Source of the DNA: Halorarum halophilum
Lineage (GTDB): Archaea > Halobacteriota > Halobacteria > Halobacteriales > Haloferacaceae
Direction of reading: 5' to 3'
NCBI RefSeq assembly: GCF_013401515.1
Contig: NZ_CP058529.1
Coordinates: 3,534,001 to 3,598,000 of the forward strand
Length of the DNA: 64,000 nt
Below, in pieces: positions 8,216 through 33,815 of the stretch. Positions within the stretch are counted from its first letter, which is position 1. Each line of letters starts with the position of its first letter. The notes below the pieces were generated by a model. The model was not told the DNA's origin and did no database searches. It saw nothing but the letters and a program-made list of their open reading frames with translations. The position numbers and the translations under genes are program-made.

Positions 8216-8887
8216 ATGGGAGAAGTGCTACGGGCAGTCGGTGTCGTCTGTGTTGTTTTACTCGCGGGGTGTGTTGGCTTCGGTGCCAACTCGGAGTCGA
8301 CCCCCACGACGACCGGGGAATCGCCGACGACCACCGCACAGCCGACGACCGAACCAACGTCGGGACCGACGACGGAGACGACCACCACACAACCGACTAC
8401 CGAAACCGCCACGCAGTCGACGACCGAGGCGTGGTCGACGCCACAGCCGCCGAACAAGCCATTCGAGAACAAACTGGAGGAGGGAGTCACGAACCACATC
8501 GAGTCCGTCGAGGTCAGGGACAGCGGCGAGTCCGTCGAGTTACGGATCGCCGCGAACACGTCGCTGCGGAACATCGATCCCCCGGAACACGGCACCGTGC
8601 GCGGCGAGCCGTTCTTCCTCGTATACGCCAACGGTTCACTCACCAACGAGTCGAGGTACGACCCCCGGTTCTACATCGCCACGGGATCGCCCGTCCAGCG
8701 CTCGTCGGAGCTCCGCTTCGAGCAGAACGGGACGTTCACGCTCACCGTCCCCCAGGCCGCGTTCGAGGCGGCCGATACGGAGGCGGGCGAGGTCGAACTC
8801 CTGGTCGTGTTGTTTGACAAGGATTCACAGTGGGACGACGTCTACGGTACCGCGACGGTGAACGCCACATACACGCCCGATGAGTGA
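8216..8887 (+). CDS. Secreted lipoprotein with Thr/Pro linker
   Basis: 223 residues. The N-terminus is a lipoprotein signal (MGEVLRAVGVVCVVLLAGC) with lipobox LAGC. Next comes a threonine/proline/glutamate-rich tether of about 50 residues with repeated TTE and PTT units, likely O-glycosylated. A beta-rich C-terminal domain of about 130 residues carries several NxT/NxS sequons. The domain is not one I recognise; it may be immunoglobulin-like. ATG 8216 is preferred over 8204 from the TATA position. After the TGA stop the same frame stays open to 9112. Confidence 0.8.
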   Translation: MGEVLRAVGVVCVVLLAGCVGFGANSESTPTTTGESPTTTAQPTTEPTSGPTTETTTTQPTTETATQSTTEAWSTPQPPNKPFENKLEEGVTNHIESVEVRDSGESVELRIAANTSLRNIDPPEHGTVRGEPFFLVYANGSLTNESRYDPRFYIATGSPVQRSSELRFEQNGTFTLTVPQAAFEAADTEAGEVELLVVLFDKDSQWDDVYGTATVNATYTPDE

Positions 8888-8965
8888 CCGAGCAGCATCC
8901 AGCGATCCGCTGGTCGTACTCTGATCGTCGGTTCGCTTGAAGCCCGTCTGTCCAGACCAGCGTCG

Positions 8966-9112
8966 TTGGAATCCCCTTCTCCAGGCACGAACAGGGGCGA
9001 AACAGCCTCAACAGACGTATTACCCCTTCTTGCAGTTCTCCTCGCACTGTTCGCTGTATACGCCGGACTTTCGGTCTACTACTGTCGGAATCCGTACGAA
9101 ATCGAGCAGTAG
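8966..9112 (+). CDS. Possible 48-residue membrane protein or lost C-terminal anchor
   Basis: A frame starting at TTG 8966 encodes a Ser/Thr-rich stretch, one strong hydrophobic helix (DVLPLLAVLLALFAVYAGLS) and a short tail YYCRNPYEIEQ. It is in the same frame as the upstream lipoprotein, with no stop other than the TGA at 8885-8887. It may be a separate small membrane protein, or the former C-terminal anchor of a longer protein cut off by that stop. No good start signal is visible. Confidence 0.3.
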   Translation: MESPSPGTNRGETASTDVLPLLAVLLALFAVYAGLSVYYCRNPYEIEQ

Positions 9113-9174
9113 TCCACCTGTACTTAGCGATACAATCGACCGTCACATCATCTCGTTCTCGTGCCCGATACGCG

Positions 9175-9189
9175 CTCCGTATGCAGCAC
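9175..9189 (-). repeat. Degenerate repeat copy C (inverted)
   Basis: Read on the minus strand it gives GTGCTGCATACGGAG, matching copy A at 13 of 15 positions. Confidence 0.4.
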
Positions 9190-9226
9190 GCTCTCGACGG
9201 TTTACTCGATTCCTGTCAAAAGGAGT

Positions 9227-9245
9227 GTGCTGACTACAGAGGATG
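9227..9245 (+). repeat. Degenerate repeat copy B (GTGCTGACTACAGAGGATG)
   Basis: Same orientation as copy A at 7796 and identical at 17 of 19 positions. The two direct copies are about 1.43 kb apart. Confidence 0.45.
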
Positions 9246-9289
9246 CCTGTACCATGATTGGAGCCACCCCCCGAGCAGCTGAGTGAACG

Positions 9290-9541
9290 TCACCTCCCTT
9301 CGACAGGGGACTGACTCTCGTCAATGTACGCGAGGGCGGCATCGAAGGCGTCGTCGGCCGTATCGAAGGTACCCCTGTGTTTCCATTCTCCGTCGGAAGA
9401 GGTAGTATAGACGTCGAAATCGCCGCCCCGGTACTCGTGCGACTCGACGTACAGTTCCTCCTCGACAGTCCCCTCATCGAGGAGCAACCAGGCACCCAGT
9501 ACCTTTCCGCCTTCCAAGTCGCGCCGTCTTCGCCAGTGCAT
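9290..9541 (-). CDS. Small hypothetical protein
   Basis: 83 residues. A basic N-terminus (MHWRRRRDLEGGK) leads into an acidic alpha/beta stretch ending FDTADDAFDAALAYIDES, typical of small soluble haloarchaeal proteins. No family recognised. It is convergent with the lipoprotein gene. Acidic composition and absence of internal breaks are the only support for translation. Confidence 0.55.
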   Translation of the reverse strand: MHWRRRRDLEGGKVLGAWLLLDEGTVEEELYVESHEYRGGDFDVYTTSSDGEWKHRGTFDTADDAFDAALAYIDESQSPVEGR

Positions 9542-9646
9542 GTGTGACCATTCTCGCCGGTCAACTAAACATCGAGCCAGAACAGATCCGGCTGACCTCC
9601 TCGAACTCGAAAGGACACAAATACTCGCTAGGTACAGGGTGACGGA

Positions 9647-9850
9647 CTATCGGTAGAATCGAACGATGAGGGAGAACAGAAGAAGAACGACGGCGACGAG
9701 GAGCATGACGGCAAGTCCTTGACGTACTCGTGGCGATACCTCCTCACCGAACAGGAATCCTCTGTAGAGAACAGCGATGAGGAGAAGCAAAATGCCGAGT
9801 ACCATCTCGTGCTCGGCGGGGAACGGGGGTCGAGCCGGAAACATCGCCAT
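9647..9850 (-). CDS. Small two-helix membrane protein
   Basis: 67 residues from ATG 9850. There are two predicted transmembrane helices, MVLGILLLLIAVLYRGFLF and LAVMLLVAVVLLLFSLIV, joined by a short charged loop (GEEVSPRVRQ). The C-terminus is RFYR. An earlier ATG at 9868 would add six basic residues. Unknown function. It is transcribed in the same direction as the next two small genes. Confidence 0.55.
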   Translation of the reverse strand: MAMFPARPPFPAEHEMVLGILLLLIAVLYRGFLFGEEVSPRVRQGLAVMLLVAVVLLLFSLIVRFYR

Positions 9851-10002
9851 GCGGGAACGCCGTATCAAGGATTGTAGGTTTGTTGGCGGTCGATACGGAA
9901 GCAGGACTACCTACTACGTCGATCAGCTTCGTTCCGACACGAGGACCGAGTACCGAACCCGTCTTACCGACTGCTGACTTCGGACCCGACCACGGGCCCG
10001 AC

Positions 10003-10164
10003 TCAGTCCTGTCCGGTCTCGACCTCGATTCCCTCGAACGTCGTCTCGACGGTCTCGGCCATGTAGGTGACCGACGTCTGGTACGCCTCGCCTTCGGTGC
10101 GCGCCTGCTGGATCTGGTTCACGTCGACCTCGTCGCTCGATTGCTTCTCGGGGTCATCGGGCAT
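10003..10164 (-). CDS. 53-residue acidic hypothetical protein
   Basis: A short gene from ATG 10164 to TGA 10003. It encodes an acidic protein beginning MPDDPEKQSSDEVDVNQIQQ and ending TTFEGIEVETGQD, with a central helix (QQARTEGEAYQTSVTYMAET). The composition is that of a genuine haloarchaeal soluble protein. The family is unknown to me. It is divergent from the DUF2391-like gene, 89 bases apart. Confidence 0.6.
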   Translation of the reverse strand: MPDDPEKQSSDEVDVNQIQQARTEGEAYQTSVTYMAETVETTFEGIEVETGQD

Positions 10165-10253
10165 CACCCGGAGTTCGGTTCGGAGGGTGGAGGGTCCGAT
10201 GGCCGCTCCGCCGCGACCGGCGGAACTACGTCGGGGGCGGGAGCCGATTGGGT

Positions 10254-10883
10254 ATGAACGGCGGAGCCGACGACCCGGGGGCCGGTCCAGGCCCGAGGAG
10301 GGACGACCCGACGGCGGCCGACGGCGGCGACCGGACGAGGCGGGAGGAACCGACGGTCGACGACCTGCTCGACCAGCTCGAGACGCTCGAGGAGACCGTC
10401 GACGACTCCGAGGAGGTCGAGAAGGTCCGGGACGCCATGCGGACCGCGACGCAGCTCTCGCGGCCGACCGTGTTCGGCCGGGTCGTCCGGGGGTTCGACC
10501 GCGGCGACATCGCCGAGGCGCTCCTCGGGAGCGTCATCTTCGGCGTCCCGATGCTCGTCGAGGGCGGCACGCAGGAGGTCGGCGAGTTCCTCGCCGCCCA
10601 TCCGGCGTACATGGCCGGGACGGCCGCGTTCACCGTTACGGTCGTCGTCGGCATCATCTACGTCGCGGACTTCCAGGACGTGCGCGTCAAGAACCCCATC
10701 CTGGGTGTCGTCCCGCGCCGACTCGTCGGGGTGCTCGGGGTGGCGGTAGTGGTGGCGGTCCTCGGACTGACCGCCTGGGGGCGGATCAGCTGGGCGGAGC
10801 CGACGATCGCGCTCGGCAACGTCGTCGCCGCGCTCGTGCCGATGGCGGTCGGGGCGGCGCTGGGCGACCTGCTGCCGGGGTGA
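10254..10883 (+). CDS. DUF2391-like integral membrane protein
   Basis: 209 residues. A disordered acidic N-terminus of about 35 residues is followed by a coiled-coil-prone segment (VDDLLDQLETLEETVDDSEEVEKV) and four hydrophobic helices: ALLGSVIFGVPMLVEGG, MAGTAAFTVTVVVGIIYVAD, LVGVLGVAVVVAVLGLTAWG and IALGNVVAALVPMAVGAALG. The pattern recalls the DUF2391 putative membrane protein family, whose role is unknown. ATG 10254 is preferred; TTG 10248 lies two codons upstream. Confidence 0.75.
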   Translation: MNGGADDPGAGPGPRRDDPTAADGGDRTRREEPTVDDLLDQLETLEETVDDSEEVEKVRDAMRTATQLSRPTVFGRVVRGFDRGDIAEALLGSVIFGVPMLVEGGTQEVGEFLAAHPAYMAGTAAFTVTVVVGIIYVADFQDVRVKNPILGVVPRRLVGVLGVAVVVAVLGLTAWGRISWAEPTIALGNVVAALVPMAVGAALGDLLPG

Positions 10884-27657: not shown

Positions 27658-29322
27658 TCACGCGTCGTCGTCGCGAACGCGATAGATGACCACGCCGTCG
27701 TTCGCGTACACCCGTTCGTACCGCCCGGTGAGTTCGAGCGACCGCTCGAGCGTGCCGAACTGGACGTACCGGAACCCCCGAACCGTGTACCCGCCGCGCG
27801 GGACGTAGAGGTAGTCCGGGTCGGGGTCGACGGGGGCGAGCGACGCGTCGAGACACCCGGCGGTCCCACAGGCCGAGGCGTTCTTGAACGCGCCGAGGTG
27901 GCGCGCGTACGTCTCGGGCGTCCGCCACTCCGACCCCCAGGGGGCGACCAGGATGGTGCGATCGGCCACCGCCGGGAACCACTCGGCCGCGTCGCCGAGC
28001 ACGACGAACGTGGAGTCCGGCTCGGTCTCCGCGGCGGCCCACTCCATCGCGGCCACGTCGTCGTCGTCGACGAACGCCGGGGTCGTCCTGTCGGTCGTGG
28101 ACGCGAACGAGTAGCCGAGCTGGCCCACCCCGGCGATCGCGCCGGTGACGAGGATCGCCGCCACGAGGACCCGACGGGCCCCCGGTCGGTCGGGGACGAT
28201 TCTCGGGAACCGGCGGGCGAGTTCGACCGCCACGCCGACGACCGCGAACGAGCCGACGGTGTACACGAACCGCGGCTGGGCGAACGCGATCTCCGCGACG
28301 ACGACCCAGGCGGGCAGCACGCGACGCCCCGCGAGCGCGAGGATGACGGCGGCCGTGAGGGGGACGAACGTCCAGATGGACACGCCCGAGAACAGCCCGC
28401 CGCCGACGCCGCCGTGGGTGCCGGCGGCGGCGGCGAACACGGTCGGGCCATGGATCGTGGCGACGGTCACCCACCACGGAGCGGTCACCGCCGCGCCGCC
28501 GAGCCCCATCGCCGTCCCCCGGAGCAGTCCGGACAGCGTCCGGTCGAAGCCGATCCAGAACAGCACGGCGGTGAGGACGGCGAACAGCGTGTAGGTCGGG
28601 TGCGTGAGCACCGTGAGCGCGAACAGGACGACGGCGGCCGGGAGCCACGTCGAGTCGCGGTCCCGGAACAGGCGGAGCGCCGCGTACGAACTCGAGAGCG
28701 CGAACAGGAACGCGGGGGCGCGGACCACCCCGCCGGCCGAGATGTGCCACTGCAGCACCTGCGGGTTCACCCCGAGCAGGAGCGCGGCAGCACAGCCCTG
28801 CGCCCGTCCGTCGAGCAGGTCGCGCCCGAGCAGGTACGCCGGGACGAGCGCGGCGGCGGTGACCAGCGGCGGGAGGAACCGCGCGGCGGCGAACGTGCCG
28901 ACCCCGAGATCGCGGAGGACGGCGAGCACGTAGAAGCCGAGCGGCGGGTACGCGACCGGCACAGGTTCGGTCGTGTAGCCGGAGACGCCCGCGGGGAGCC
29001 CGTACCCGGACGCCCGGATGCCGTCGGCGATGACGGTGTAGAGCCCGGCGCCGAACGCCGGGTACGGGTTCGTGAGGACGTACGTCGCCGCGACCGCGAG
29101 GCCGACCGCCAGCACACCACCGACCCACGGCGCGTCTGCGCGGGAGAACGGCGCGTCCGGCCAGGCGCGTGCGCCCGCGAACGCCCGAGTGAACGCGCCG
29201 GATTGCTCCCGGTTCGATACGACCGACGAGCCGGGCTCCCCCGTCGACGTGCTGCGCTTTCCGGTCGCGTCCCCGGGGTTCCCGGTCGAATCGTCGCTCC
29301 CGCCCGCCGAGTCGCCGCTCAT
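27658..29322 (-). CDS. Glycosyltransferase family 39-like membrane protein
   Basis: 554 residues. A disordered Ser/Gly/Asp-rich N-terminus of about 65 residues leads to about ten transmembrane helices beginning WVGGVLAVGLAVAATYVLTN. The first extracytoplasmic loop has TEPVPVAYPPLGFYVLAVL, the position where GT39/ArnT-type enzymes carry acidic catalytic residues. The C-terminal soluble domain ends VYANDGVVIYRVRDDDA. It probably moves a sugar from a dolichyl-phosphate donor outside the membrane. Its start overlaps the stop of the upstream gene (ATGA, 29319-29322). Confidence 0.78.
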   Translation of the reverse strand: MSGDSAGGSDDSTGNPGDATGKRSTSTGEPGSSVVSNREQSGAFTRAFAGARAWPDAPFSRADAPWVGGVLAVGLAVAATYVLTNPYPAFGAGLYTVIADGIRASGYGLPAGVSGYTTEPVPVAYPPLGFYVLAVLRDLGVGTFAAARFLPPLVTAAALVPAYLLGRDLLDGRAQGCAAALLLGVNPQVLQWHISAGGVVRAPAFLFALSSSYAALRLFRDRDSTWLPAAVVLFALTVLTHPTYTLFAVLTAVLFWIGFDRTLSGLLRGTAMGLGGAAVTAPWWVTVATIHGPTVFAAAAGTHGGVGGGLFSGVSIWTFVPLTAAVILALAGRRVLPAWVVVAEIAFAQPRFVYTVGSFAVVGVAVELARRFPRIVPDRPGARRVLVAAILVTGAIAGVGQLGYSFASTTDRTTPAFVDDDDVAAMEWAAAETEPDSTFVVLGDAAEWFPAVADRTILVAPWGSEWRTPETYARHLGAFKNASACGTAGCLDASLAPVDPDPDYLYVPRGGYTVRGFRYVQFGTLERSLELTGRYERVYANDGVVIYRVRDDDA

Positions 29323-30707
29323 CGTCTCCCCAGCGTGAACGGCGTCCGGAGTGACAGTCGGTACGAACTCAGGCGGTATTCCACCAGGAGCCACCACGGC
29401 GCGACCACGAGGAGCGTCAGGGCCGCGAGGATCTCGGGAATGCCCATCCAGGGCGGCAGGACGTACGCGATGGCGTTCACGACCGAGGGCGGGAGGTTCG
29501 CGGCGAGCCGGGAGATCAGGTCGCCCTCCCCGCTCGCTGCCGGCGGTTCGTTCGACTCCAACCCGAGCGAGTCGGCGCTCTCCCCGCCCTCGCTCTCGTC
29601 GCCCGTGCCGAGCCTTTCGGACTCGTACGGGAAGCCGACGTCGGCGGTCCAGACGATCTCGCCCTCCTGATCGATCTCGAACACGCGGTCGCCGTTCGAG
29701 TCGGTGATCAGCGTGTGCCCGTTCGGCAGGCGGTCGGCGTCACGGGGCCACGTCATGCGCTGGTCGGCCCACACCCAGCTCCGCTCCCAGCCGCCGTCCA
29801 CGCGCTGGTACTCGACGACACGACCGCGCTCGGAGTCGGCGACCAGCACCGCGGGGCCGCCCCGCTCGGCGGGGATGAAGTCGGGATTGTGTTGCTCGTA
29901 CAGCACGCTGTGGTCGTCGTCGGCGCCGAGCGTCCAGTCCTCCATGTACCCCCGTTCGAGGTCGATGAACGCCACCTGGTCGTGGTTCCGGATGCTCACC
30001 ATCACGGCCTCGCGGCCGTCGATCTCGACGGCCTCGACGTCGTTGATGTGCGTCCAGTCGTCGGGGTACGGGCCGCCGCTCTCGGGGTCGAACTGGCTCT
30101 GTGCGTCCCACTCCCACTCGACGATCCCGGTGGTCGCGTTCACGATGTACGTGCGATCCCGGTCGATGTCCGCGACGAGGAGGCGCTCGTCGTCGATCCG
30201 GTCGACGTCGTGCCACCGGGTCGAGTGCTTGCCGGGCGTGATGCGGCTGTACACGTGCGTCGTCTCGCCCGTGGTGAGGTTCACCCGCTCGACGCCGTTC
30301 CGGGTGCACACCGACTCGGAGCCGCAGTCCTCGGGGGTGAGGTGGTCGGCGTAGACGTACTCGACGGTGGCGTTCGTCCCCTCCACGGGGTCGACGTCCC
30401 AGTACCGCGTGTGGGTGTTGTCGTAGTAGTAGATGCTTCCGTCCGGAGCGAACGCGACGAGTTCGGCGAGCTGACGGGCTCCCGACCCCTCGTCGCCCAC
30501 GAACGCCGTCGAGTCGGTGCCGACGATGGTGATGTTGTCACGCTCGCCGACCACCTGCCCGGTGTCACCCGAGCGGAACGCCTGTTCGACCGACGGGTCG
30601 CCCCGCACGCTGTCGCCGGCGAACTGGGCCGACGCGAAGCCACCGGCGAGGACGGCCGCTGCCAACAGTGTGAGCACTCCGAGCGTGACGCGGCGCCGAT
30701 TCCCCAT
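29319..30707 (-). CDS. Arylsulfotransferase (ASST)-like membrane-anchored propeller protein
   Basis: 462 residues. N-terminal membrane helix or signal (VTLGVLTLLAAAVLAGGFASA). A beta-propeller of ASST type shows TRWHDVDRIDDERLLVADID, DWTHINDVEAV, EQHNPDFIP, WPRDADRLPNGHTLITDSNG and GEIVWTADVGFPY. A second helix near the C-terminus (IPEILAALTLLVVAPWWLLV) is followed by a basic tail. The propeller faces outside. Sulfate-ester transfer is known for some ASST relatives, but many have no assigned activity. Translationally coupled to the GT39-like gene. Start ATG 30707. Confidence 0.82.
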   Translation of the reverse strand: MGNRRRVTLGVLTLLAAAVLAGGFASAQFAGDSVRGDPSVEQAFRSGDTGQVVGERDNITIVGTDSTAFVGDEGSGARQLAELVAFAPDGSIYYYDNTHTRYWDVDPVEGTNATVEYVYADHLTPEDCGSESVCTRNGVERVNLTTGETTHVYSRITPGKHSTRWHDVDRIDDERLLVADIDRDRTYIVNATTGIVEWEWDAQSQFDPESGGPYPDDWTHINDVEAVEIDGREAVMVSIRNHDQVAFIDLERGYMEDWTLGADDDHSVLYEQHNPDFIPAERGGPAVLVADSERGRVVEYQRVDGGWERSWVWADQRMTWPRDADRLPNGHTLITDSNGDRVFEIDQEGEIVWTADVGFPYESERLGTGDESEGGESADSLGLESNEPPAASGEGDLISRLAANLPPSVVNAIAYVLPPWMGIPEILAALTLLVVAPWWLLVEYRLSSYRLSLRTPFTLGRR

Positions 30708-30924: not shown

Positions 30925-32976
30925 ATGGCTACACCGTCCCCAGTCGCCACGCGCCGACGAACGCTCGCCGCGCTCGGTGCTACCGCCGGAACTGCCCTCA
31001 CCGGCGGCTGTCTCGATCAGCTCCGGAGCGTGGCCAGCCGGAACACGAGCCAGCGGGTCTCGCTCGACATCAAGGCCCCCCCGGCCGACGAGGACCCGAT
31101 GGCGATCGCGATCGCACGCACGCTGGCCGAGAACCTCCACGCGGTCGGTATCGCCTCCCAGGTGACCCCCGTCGCCATCGAGGAACTGTACCGGCAGGTG
31201 CTCATCAACAACGACTTCGACGTCTACGTCGGTCGCTACCCCACGACGTCCGTCATCGGGCCGGACGAGTTCTACCCGCTGTTACACTCCCGGTTCACGG
31301 GCGAGGCGGGGTGGCAGAACCCGTTCGGCTGTACCGACCTGACGATCGACGAACTGCTCGACCGGCAGCGCACGACGACGGGCGAGGAACGGAACGCGGC
31401 CGTCACGGACCTCCAGGGCGCGATCGACGACGTGCGCCCGTTCTCCGTGCTCGCGTTCCCGGACGACCTCTCGGCCGTCCGCGAGGGGCGCTACGAGGGG
31501 TGGATCGGCACAGCTGAGGGCTTCGACACGCCCCTCGGCCTGCTGGGTCTCGACAAGGTAACGACGACCGTGGACGCGTCGGAGGGGGACGAGGCGGCCG
31601 CCCCCGACCGGCTCCGGCTGGCGACGACAGACGTGCGAGTCACGGAGAACCGCAATCCAGTCGCCGTCGAGTTCCGGAACACCGGCGCGTTCACCGGCCT
31701 CGTGTACGACTCGCTCGCGAGGCAGTTCACCGACGAGATCCGCCCGTGGCTCGCGACCAGCTGGGAGTGGCCAGGCGAGGACGAGACGGAGGGTCGGCGG
31801 ACCGTACGCACGGACGGCACCGAGTCCGGCGGGGGGACGCCGGGGAACGGGACGGCCGCCGGAACACCGGGCAACGAGACCGCGGCGACCCCGGCTAGCA
31901 CGGGGACCCCGACGGGTACCGGGGTCGCCGAACCCACGGCGGGCAACGGGACCGAGACGGGAACCGAGCGAACAGAGGAGGCGGACGGGACCGTGACGAT
32001 CGAGGCCGGGGAGGGCGAGCTGTCGGCGATCGTCCGACTCCGCGAGGGGCTGACCTGGCACGACGGCGAGCCGCTCACCGCCGCCGACGTCGCGTTCACC
32101 TACGAGTTCCTGACCGACACGTCGATGGGCGAACTGGAGTCGCCGGTCCCGGCCCCTCGGTTCCGGGGCCAGTCCTCGCTGGTCACGTCGGCCCGGGCGA
32201 TCGACGACCGGACGCTGGCGCTGCGGTTCAACACGACGAACCGGCGGGTGGCGGCCGGCGCCCTCACGGTCCCGATACTGCCCGAGCACGTCTGGACCGA
32301 ACGGACCGGCAAGGTTGACGTCCCCGGGCTCGGCACCGAGGGGGTCACCGAGGCGCTCGTCTGGGCGAACCCCGAACCCGTGGGAAGCGGCCCGCTCGAG
32401 TTCGAGCGCGCGACGGCGGGGGAGTCGGTGCTGTTCTCGCGCTTCGAGGAGCACTTCCTCGCCTCCGACGAACCTCCGGAGGGCCTCCCCGAGCGGCTCC
32501 ACGGCAAGCCGGCGTTCGACGAACTGTTCGTCCAGGCGGCCCCGTCCGACTCGACCGCGGTCGAGCTCGCGACGGCGGGCGACGTCGACGCGACCATCTC
32601 GCAGCTGAACCCGTCGACGGTGCCGCGGATCGGCCGCACGAACGAACTGCGGCTCGTCTCCTCCCGGTCGTGGTCGTTCTACCACCTCGGGTTCAACATG
32701 CGGCGCTCGCCGCTGTCGAACCCGCACTTCCGGGGGGCGATCTCCCGGCTGCTCGACGCGGAGCGGGTCGCGAACGAGCAGTTCGGTGGCTACGCGCGGC
32801 CGGCCGCGACGCCGCTTGCCGGAAGCAAGTGGGAAGCGCCCGAACTCCGGTGGGACCAGGAGACGCGCAACGAGCGCTTCCACGGCCGGAACGGCGAACT
32901 CGACGTGGAGCGCGCCCGGACGGCCTTCCGCGAGGCGGGGTATCGATACGATGAGGAGGGCCGACTCCGCCACTGA
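30925..32976 (+). CDS. ABC-type solute-binding lipoprotein (family 5) with permuted domain order
   Basis: 683 residues. Tat-type signal TRRRTLAALGATAGTALTGGC. Residues about 45-205 resemble the C-terminal portion of family 5 binding proteins: IARTLAENLHAVGIASQVTP, NNDFDVYVGRYPTTS, LTIDELLDRQRTTTGEER, FSVLAFPDDLSAVREG. Residues about 225-683 then resemble the N-terminal portion: LVYDSLARQF, REGLTWHDGEPLTAADVAFT, VGSGPLEFERATAGESVLF, and FYHLGFNMRRSPLSNPHFRG. An Asn/Gly/Thr-rich linker (about 293-352) interrupts the second part. It should bind peptides or a similar solute; no permease gene is adjacent. Confidence 0.85.
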   Translation: MATPSPVATRRRTLAALGATAGTALTGGCLDQLRSVASRNTSQRVSLDIKAPPADEDPMAIAIARTLAENLHAVGIASQVTPVAIEELYRQVLINNDFDVYVGRYPTTSVIGPDEFYPLLHSRFTGEAGWQNPFGCTDLTIDELLDRQRTTTGEERNAAVTDLQGAIDDVRPFSVLAFPDDLSAVREGRYEGWIGTAEGFDTPLGLLGLDKVTTTVDASEGDEAAAPDRLRLATTDVRVTENRNPVAVEFRNTGAFTGLVYDSLARQFTDEIRPWLATSWEWPGEDETEGRRTVRTDGTESGGGTPGNGTAAGTPGNETAATPASTGTPTGTGVAEPTAGNGTETGTERTEEADGTVTIEAGEGELSAIVRLREGLTWHDGEPLTAADVAFTYEFLTDTSMGELESPVPAPRFRGQSSLVTSARAIDDRTLALRFNTTNRRVAAGALTVPILPEHVWTERTGKVDVPGLGTEGVTEALVWANPEPVGSGPLEFERATAGESVLFSRFEEHFLASDEPPEGLPERLHGKPAFDELFVQAAPSDSTAVELATAGDVDATISQLNPSTVPRIGRTNELRLVSSRSWSFYHLGFNMRRSPLSNPHFRGAISRLLDAERVANEQFGGYARPAATPLAGSKWEAPELRWDQETRNERFHGRNGELDVERARTAFREAGYRYDEEGRLRH

Positions 32977-33815
32977 TGAGCACGCTCGTCGCCGTCCTGG
33001 TCCAGGTGTTCGTCGTCGTCACGGCGCTCTGTCTGGCCGGCGCCATCGTGCTCGCCCGCGAGGGCCGTGTCGCGCTGCTCCGAACGGACGGCCGTCGCCG
33101 GATCAGGGAGGTCGGGCCGGCGATGCTCGCGCTCGGCGCCATGCTCCTCCTCAACGGCCTCGTTCGCGAGCGCGTTCCCGACGTCTCGTGGCTGATCGGC
33201 GTGAACATCACCGGCTACATCCACGCGCTGGAGGGCGGGTTCGTCCCGTGGGTCCAGTCGTTCGCCACGCCGGCGGCGACGGCGTACTTCTCGTTCGTGT
33301 ACGTGTTCGGCTACACCTTCCTCCTCGTGTTCCCGCTGCTCGCGTACCTGCTCCACCCCGACCCCGACCACCTCCGCGAACTCGCGGTGGCCTACGGGCT
33401 GAACTACGCCATCGGGCTGGTCTGTTACGCCGTCTTCGTCGCCTATGGCCCGCGGAACCTGCTCGTGGACCAGGTGGAACCGCTGCTGTACTCGACCTAC
33501 CCGGAGTACCAGACGCTGGTCAGCCACGTGAACACGAACACGAACGTCTTCCCCTCGCTGCACACGTCGCTGTCCCTCACGACCGCGGCGTTCGCGGTGC
33601 GAACGCGCCGGACGTACCCGGCCTGGGGGGTGATCGCACCCGCCCTCGCCGCGAGCGTCGTCGTCGCGACGATGTACCTCGGCATCCACTGGGCGACCGA
33701 CGTCGTCGCGGGGGCGTTGCTCGCGGCGCTGTGCGTGACGCTCGCGCGTCGTTCGGACACCGAGGCGCTGCTCGGCCGCATCCGCGCGGCCGGCGACTGG
33801 CGCGTTCGGGGATAA
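32976..33815 (+). CDS. PAP2-family membrane phosphatase
   Basis: 279 residues with about six transmembrane helices. The phosphatase motifs are FPSLHTSLSLTTAAF (motif 2, His) and GIHWATDVVAG (motif 3, catalytic His and Asp). Motif 1 is weak. The layout resembles the inositolphosphotransferase/Aur1-like PAP2 branch. The ATG shares one base with the stop of the solute-binding gene (TGATG), so the two are translationally coupled. Substrate is probably a lipid phosphate or sugar-phosphate lipid. Confidence 0.87.
   Translation: MSTLVAVLVQVFVVVTALCLAGAIVLAREGRVALLRTDGRRRIREVGPAMLALGAMLLLNGLVRERVPDVSWLIGVNITGYIHALEGGFVPWVQSFATPAATAYFSFVYVFGYTFLLVFPLLAYLLHPDPDHLRELAVAYGLNYAIGLVCYAVFVAYGPRNLLVDQVEPLLYSTYPEYQTLVSHVNTNTNVFPSLHTSLSLTTAAFAVRTRRTYPAWGVIAPALAASVVVATMYLGIHWATDVVAGALLAALCVTLARRSDTEALLGRIRAAGDWRVRG

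Follow-up and report, generated by a model that had tools for sequence, protein, structure and literature searches.

The window, the whole 64,000-nucleotide stretch analysed here, carries on its forward strand (positions 30925–32976) the gene for a 683-residue, circularly permuted solute-binding lipoprotein of family 5 (hereafter the window SBP). Its product begins with a Tat-type signal peptide and lipobox (30925–31011; MATPSPVATRRRTLAALGATAGTALTGGC), in which residues 10–12 are RRR and the motif TGGC ends at the Cys of residue 29. Two conserved parts follow. Part A (residues ~45–207; 31057–31545) corresponds to the canonical C-terminal part of the family (AppA chain ~359–497), and part B (residues ~228–683; 31606–32973) to the first two thirds of a canonical protein (AppA chain ~35–348); between them lies a new junction of variable length that bridges the original C- and N-termini (residues 208–227; 31546–31605). 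Part B, which closes the protein with ...FREAGYRYDEEGRLRH, is interrupted by a disordered, genus-specific Gly/Thr/Asn insert (residues ~290–357; 31792–31995). The SBP stop codon overlaps the start codon of the next gene within the sequence TGATG (32974–32978, forward strand), and this second gene (32976–33815, forward strand) encodes a 279-residue membrane phosphatase/phosphotransferase of the PAP2_3 family (PF14378, E 2e-17; motifs PSLH and TMYLGIHWxxD). On the reverse strand, divergent genes encode an arylsulfotransferase-like protein (29319–30677) and a PMT_2-like membrane glycosyltransferase of GT-C type (27658–29322), found in 21 and 25, respectively, of 106 homologous loci; these neighbours hint at lipid-linked glycans, a lead only.

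The original prediction held that the two halves of a family 5 protein stand here in swapped order, as in a circular permutation, and suggested aligning each part separately to the family. The window SBP matches Pfam SBP_bac_5 (PF00496) at 151 bits against a curated cut-off of 32.4, with residues 272–678 covering positions 2–283 of the 368-position profile (E 6e-44); the N-terminal half alone aligns to profile positions 296–362 (E 0.04, weak by itself), and an NCBIfam search returned partial matches only, far below the cut-offs. We assembled a family alignment from homologues of related genomes and compared it, using hhalign, with a reference set of five aligned canonical family 5 proteins. 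Part A (~45–207) matched columns 401–545 of 567 (E 4e-19) and the remainder of the protein matched columns 76–400 (E 5e-45), identifying part A as the canonical C-terminal part and part B as the N-terminal one. A search of the sequences of solved structures gave the same inversion within a single protein: positions 202–551 of the family profile matched AppA (1xoc) chain residues 35–348 (1e-52), and positions 16–158 matched residues 359–497 (2e-16), so that the cut can be located to within ~10 residues of the canonical protein. In a profile search, part A alone matched over 50 SBP_5 chains of known structure in their C-terminal parts. Since parts A and B are each present once, the window SBP does not comprise two complete domains; its inverted N-to-C order leads us to class it as a permuted variant rather than as a canonical SBP family 5 member.

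Structure prediction accords with this reading. The AlphaFold model of the window SBP is one compact body (mean pLDDT 86.8, pTM 0.85), and a Foldseek search with it placed SBP_5-type proteins at the top (TM ~0.5), with all 50 of the 50 PDB matches listed being SBP_5-type (Cluster C) binding proteins. Foldseek aligns in chain order and reports no residue ranges, and the value of ~0.5 is therefore a sequential TM and not that of a permuted superposition; the fold matches agree with permutation rather than proving it by superposition. Part A, submitted alone, again matched SBP_5 proteins, including AppA at TM 0.63. The model displays a predicted two-lobed SBP fold. The first strand after the lipid-anchored Cys would belong to the second lobe, and the chain would finish with the helix that comes before this strand in canonical proteins, the short junction connecting the old termini. 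From profiles and prediction together, we expect the permuted protein to form a normal two-lobed ligand-binding body whose membrane tether is attached elsewhere. The ~60-residue Gly/Thr/Asn stretch, which the original prediction had listed as a linker accompanying the permutation, is real but lineage-specific: its pLDDT lies below 50 over most of its length, and most homologues in the family alignment lack it and are joined directly at that position. As judged from this alignment, the insert is confined to the window's genus and is no part of the permutation; as a component of it we rule it out.

The gene that overlaps the SBP stop codon is the SBP's most constant neighbour. Its product scores 64 bits against PF14378 (cut-off 27) and resembles PAP2_3 proteins in keeping the PSLH and HxxxD (GIHWxxD) motifs with their catalytic histidines, both found in nearly all copies, while the usual Arg of the third PAP2 motif is not conserved. 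A PAP2 gene lies no more than 400 bp downstream of the SBP in 114 of 128 frames, overlapping it in 69, and 68 of the 114 adjacent pairs have an overlap of −1 or −4. Counted by locus, PAP2 is found at 102 of 106 non-redundant SBP loci; a few loci (L066, L069 and L110) have none nearby. Both genes occur together in 105 of 170 genomes, with PAP2 alone in two and the SBP alone in none (Fisher p 7e-45, without correction for kinship), and three genera (g5, g28 and g25) contain genomes with both genes alongside others with neither. To our knowledge, PAP2_3 proteins have not been described as partners of a binding protein. Co-inheritance and gene adjacency make a partnership between SBP and PAP2 probable, though they are no proof of contact. 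In two Natrinema-type loci (L064 and L067), a single PAP2 gene is flanked by two permuted SBP genes in one operon. A further recurrent neighbour, the cluster c7 membrane protein (~400–480 residues; L061:7927–9360, L057:10810–12186 and others), occurs at 52 of the 106 SBP–PAP2 loci; a Pfam scan of it gave no match, and a suspected resemblance to LssY_C was not supported.

As an ordinary importer subunit, the window SBP could in principle use a Dpp/Opp permease whose gene lies at another site of the genome. A DppB profile finds matches in 159 of the 170 genomes, most genomes have several DppB-type permeases, and most of those with the SBP–PAP2 pair also carry Dpp-type permeases, so shared use is possible there. 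In a second, more divergent permuted subfamily (L075–L087, L089, L092 and L093; 557–654 residues), 13 of 16 loci have a DppB-type permease gene beside that of the SBP. Against this, no Dpp/Opp permease gene adjoins the window SBP, and throughout its subfamily the SBP adjoins PAP2 rather than permeases. The DppB profile also detected no DppB-type permease in six genomes from three genera (G022, G129, G130 and G131 from one genus, G141 and G163), all of which retain both SBP and PAP2. One of these, G022, is a single contig and 99% complete; the DppB profile recovers none of its 24 BPD_transp_1 matches, and its sole SBP_5 protein belongs to the window subfamily. Pfam alone reveals the permuted order of this protein, with profile positions 288–363 placed ahead of 1–139 and 140–266. 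We consider service as an ordinary importer subunit unlikely, and these distributions suggest that the window subfamily is not an importer component, at least not always. The original prediction, that the protein may act alone or as a receptor, is only partly right: no permease is adjacent, but the gene is coupled to that of a PAP2_3 phosphatase (the 114 frames described above), a neighbour which the prediction did not mention.

The window genome itself holds members of both permuted subfamilies. Three of its 14 SBP_5 matches are permuted, namely the window SBP, a paralogue on C2 (164–166 kb) and a second-subfamily member, also on C2 (42 kb). The last of these (L075, G000:C2:33001–53000, at ~8.7–10.4 kb) shares its operon with genes for DppB, DppC and two ATPases.

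A role as a receptor, feeding a chemotaxis transducer or other sensor, would suit an orphan SBP lipoprotein, and haloarchaea do possess receptor lipoproteins (BasB and CosB). It is a distinctly improbable role for the window SBP, as there is no transducer among the recurrent neighbours scanned (PAP2, c5, c6 and c7) and the recurrent partner is an enzyme.

That the order of the parts might be an artefact, either a gene fragment fused to the gene beside it or an error of assembly or reading frame, was a concern for an arrangement first met as a single ORF and with one homologue (Salinigranum, G028) broken by a frameshift, yet we regard it as having next to no probability, given that the junctions, anchor spacing and C-terminus are common to 120 non-redundant proteins from independent assemblies, that each protein has each part only once and that a single confident fold is predicted. 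Conservation of this kind rules out a fusion or frame artefact. The survey of haloarchaeal homologues that had been proposed covered 80 named loci, whose 93 frames are all permuted. Within the window's taxonomic family, 105 of 170 genomes yield matches to the family model, nearly always in one colinear full-length pass. Among the 120 non-redundant homologues, 118 have an RR motif and lipobox, the Cys lies 16 residues ahead of the first model residue, and the gap between parts A and B has a median of 17 residues; in the 117 that are complete, the C-terminus falls 1–6 residues past the end of the model. With the swapped halves borne out by profile comparisons, by the predicted structure and by conservation across more than 100 species, the window SBP is almost certainly a genuine circular permutant of a Cluster C protein (SBP family 5, DppA/OppA). 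At the Salinigranum locus (L070, G028:C2:35001–55000, 8767–10559), the frameshift splits the SBP gene, possibly a recent pseudogene, beside an intact PAP2 gene.

Among the SBP_5 matches in non-haloarchaeal genomes sampled from the phylum, no permuted protein was found: 27 were canonical and two were left undecided by profile, both of the latter being full length in Pfam. Matches on bacterial plasmids that seemed to span the junction (S. meliloti L204 and Pseudosulfitobacter L205) proved to be canonical, with the C-terminal part behind part B. In a tree of re-ordered sequences, holding the 31 permuted rows as one clade gave a log-likelihood 8.4 above that of the free tree (AU p 0.65); the one-clade tree fits better than the free search and is hence compatible with a single origin. 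The most probable history is a single permutation event in a forerunner of present-day haloarchaea, through duplication and trimming, with one descendant subfamily still serving Dpp-type importers. One haloarchaeal chain (L209, G038:C1:2360001–2368000, minus strand, 1582 codons) carries two canonical SBP_5 domains in tandem after a single signal peptide, the kind of intermediate required for permutation by duplication. It shows that the duplication step exists in haloarchaea, although we do not claim it as the ancestor.

The window subfamily, by comparison, appears to have left the transporter, becoming translationally coupled to PAP2 and inherited with it. We favor, with reasonable though not full confidence, a role in which the permuted binding protein works with PAP2 rather than as an importer subunit. 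The active site of PAP2_3 is expected to face the cell exterior, where the lipoprotein would also reside and could capture an external ligand or lipid head group; contact between the two would then allow the captured ligand to be presented to PAP2, or PAP2 to be switched on or off in the manner of LpqW. This presenting or regulating mechanism we state only tentatively, and the same caution extends to the broader proposal, a new haloarchaeal two-protein surface system in which a permuted Cluster C lipoprotein may sense a ligand for, or hand it to, a PAP2_3 lipid phosphatase/phosphotransferase, the anchor having moved so that an enzyme of the membrane, and not an ABC permease, would be within reach of the lobes. 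As to the ligand, an Asp holds the peptide N-terminus in DppA and OppA, and a conserved counterpart of this residue is missing from the family alignment, which argues, not strongly, against a DppA-like peptide. The pair on Haloferax gibbonsii pHG2 carries the annotations ABC transporter substrate-binding protein and phosphatase PAP2 family protein. All permuted proteins are annotated as plain ABC substrate-binding proteins, a label that probably misstates the function of the PAP2-linked branch.

Binding proteins that are naturally circularly permuted are rare, and we found one described class, in Cluster B. Its representative, Tp0684 (TpMglB-2), is a lipid-tethered, naturally permuted and clade-conserved protein, reported to bind D-glucose with a conformational change and proposed as a Type Ic/Cluster Bc class of binding protein (PMC4990184). 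The window SBP shares with it the natural permutation of a binding protein; however, Tp0684 is a bacterial protein with the Type I fold of Cluster B sugar-binding proteins, broken in the N-lobe and encoded in a cluster with permease and ATPase genes (PMC4990184), whereas the window SBP is archaeal, of Cluster C and coupled to PAP2, matching only SBP_bac_5 in Pfam and lacking the Cluster B fold. Our search of the open-access literature turned up no permuted Cluster C (DppA/OppA-type) protein, and the class is apparently unreported so far. It occurs in more than 100 haloarchaeal genomes and, with one branch in importer operons and another tied to an enzyme, offers a natural test of the effects of anchor position and topology, and of how a binding protein leaves its transporter.

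Compared with DppA, OppA and AppA (1dpp, 1xoc), the window SBP is homologous over its whole length once re-ordered and is predicted to adopt the same fold class, but its parts are inverted, its anchor sits elsewhere on the body and it has no permease operon. LpqW of mycobacteria (2grv), which was recovered as a Foldseek match, is likewise a lipoprotein of this fold class; it differs in being actinobacterial and canonical in order (profile positions 3–62 matching chain residues 410–469). LpqW is described as steering mannolipid synthesis rather than serving in transport, and these descriptions mention no PAP2 partner (PMC3229680, PMC12421883). By analogy, LpqW offers the best model for how the window SBP might work.
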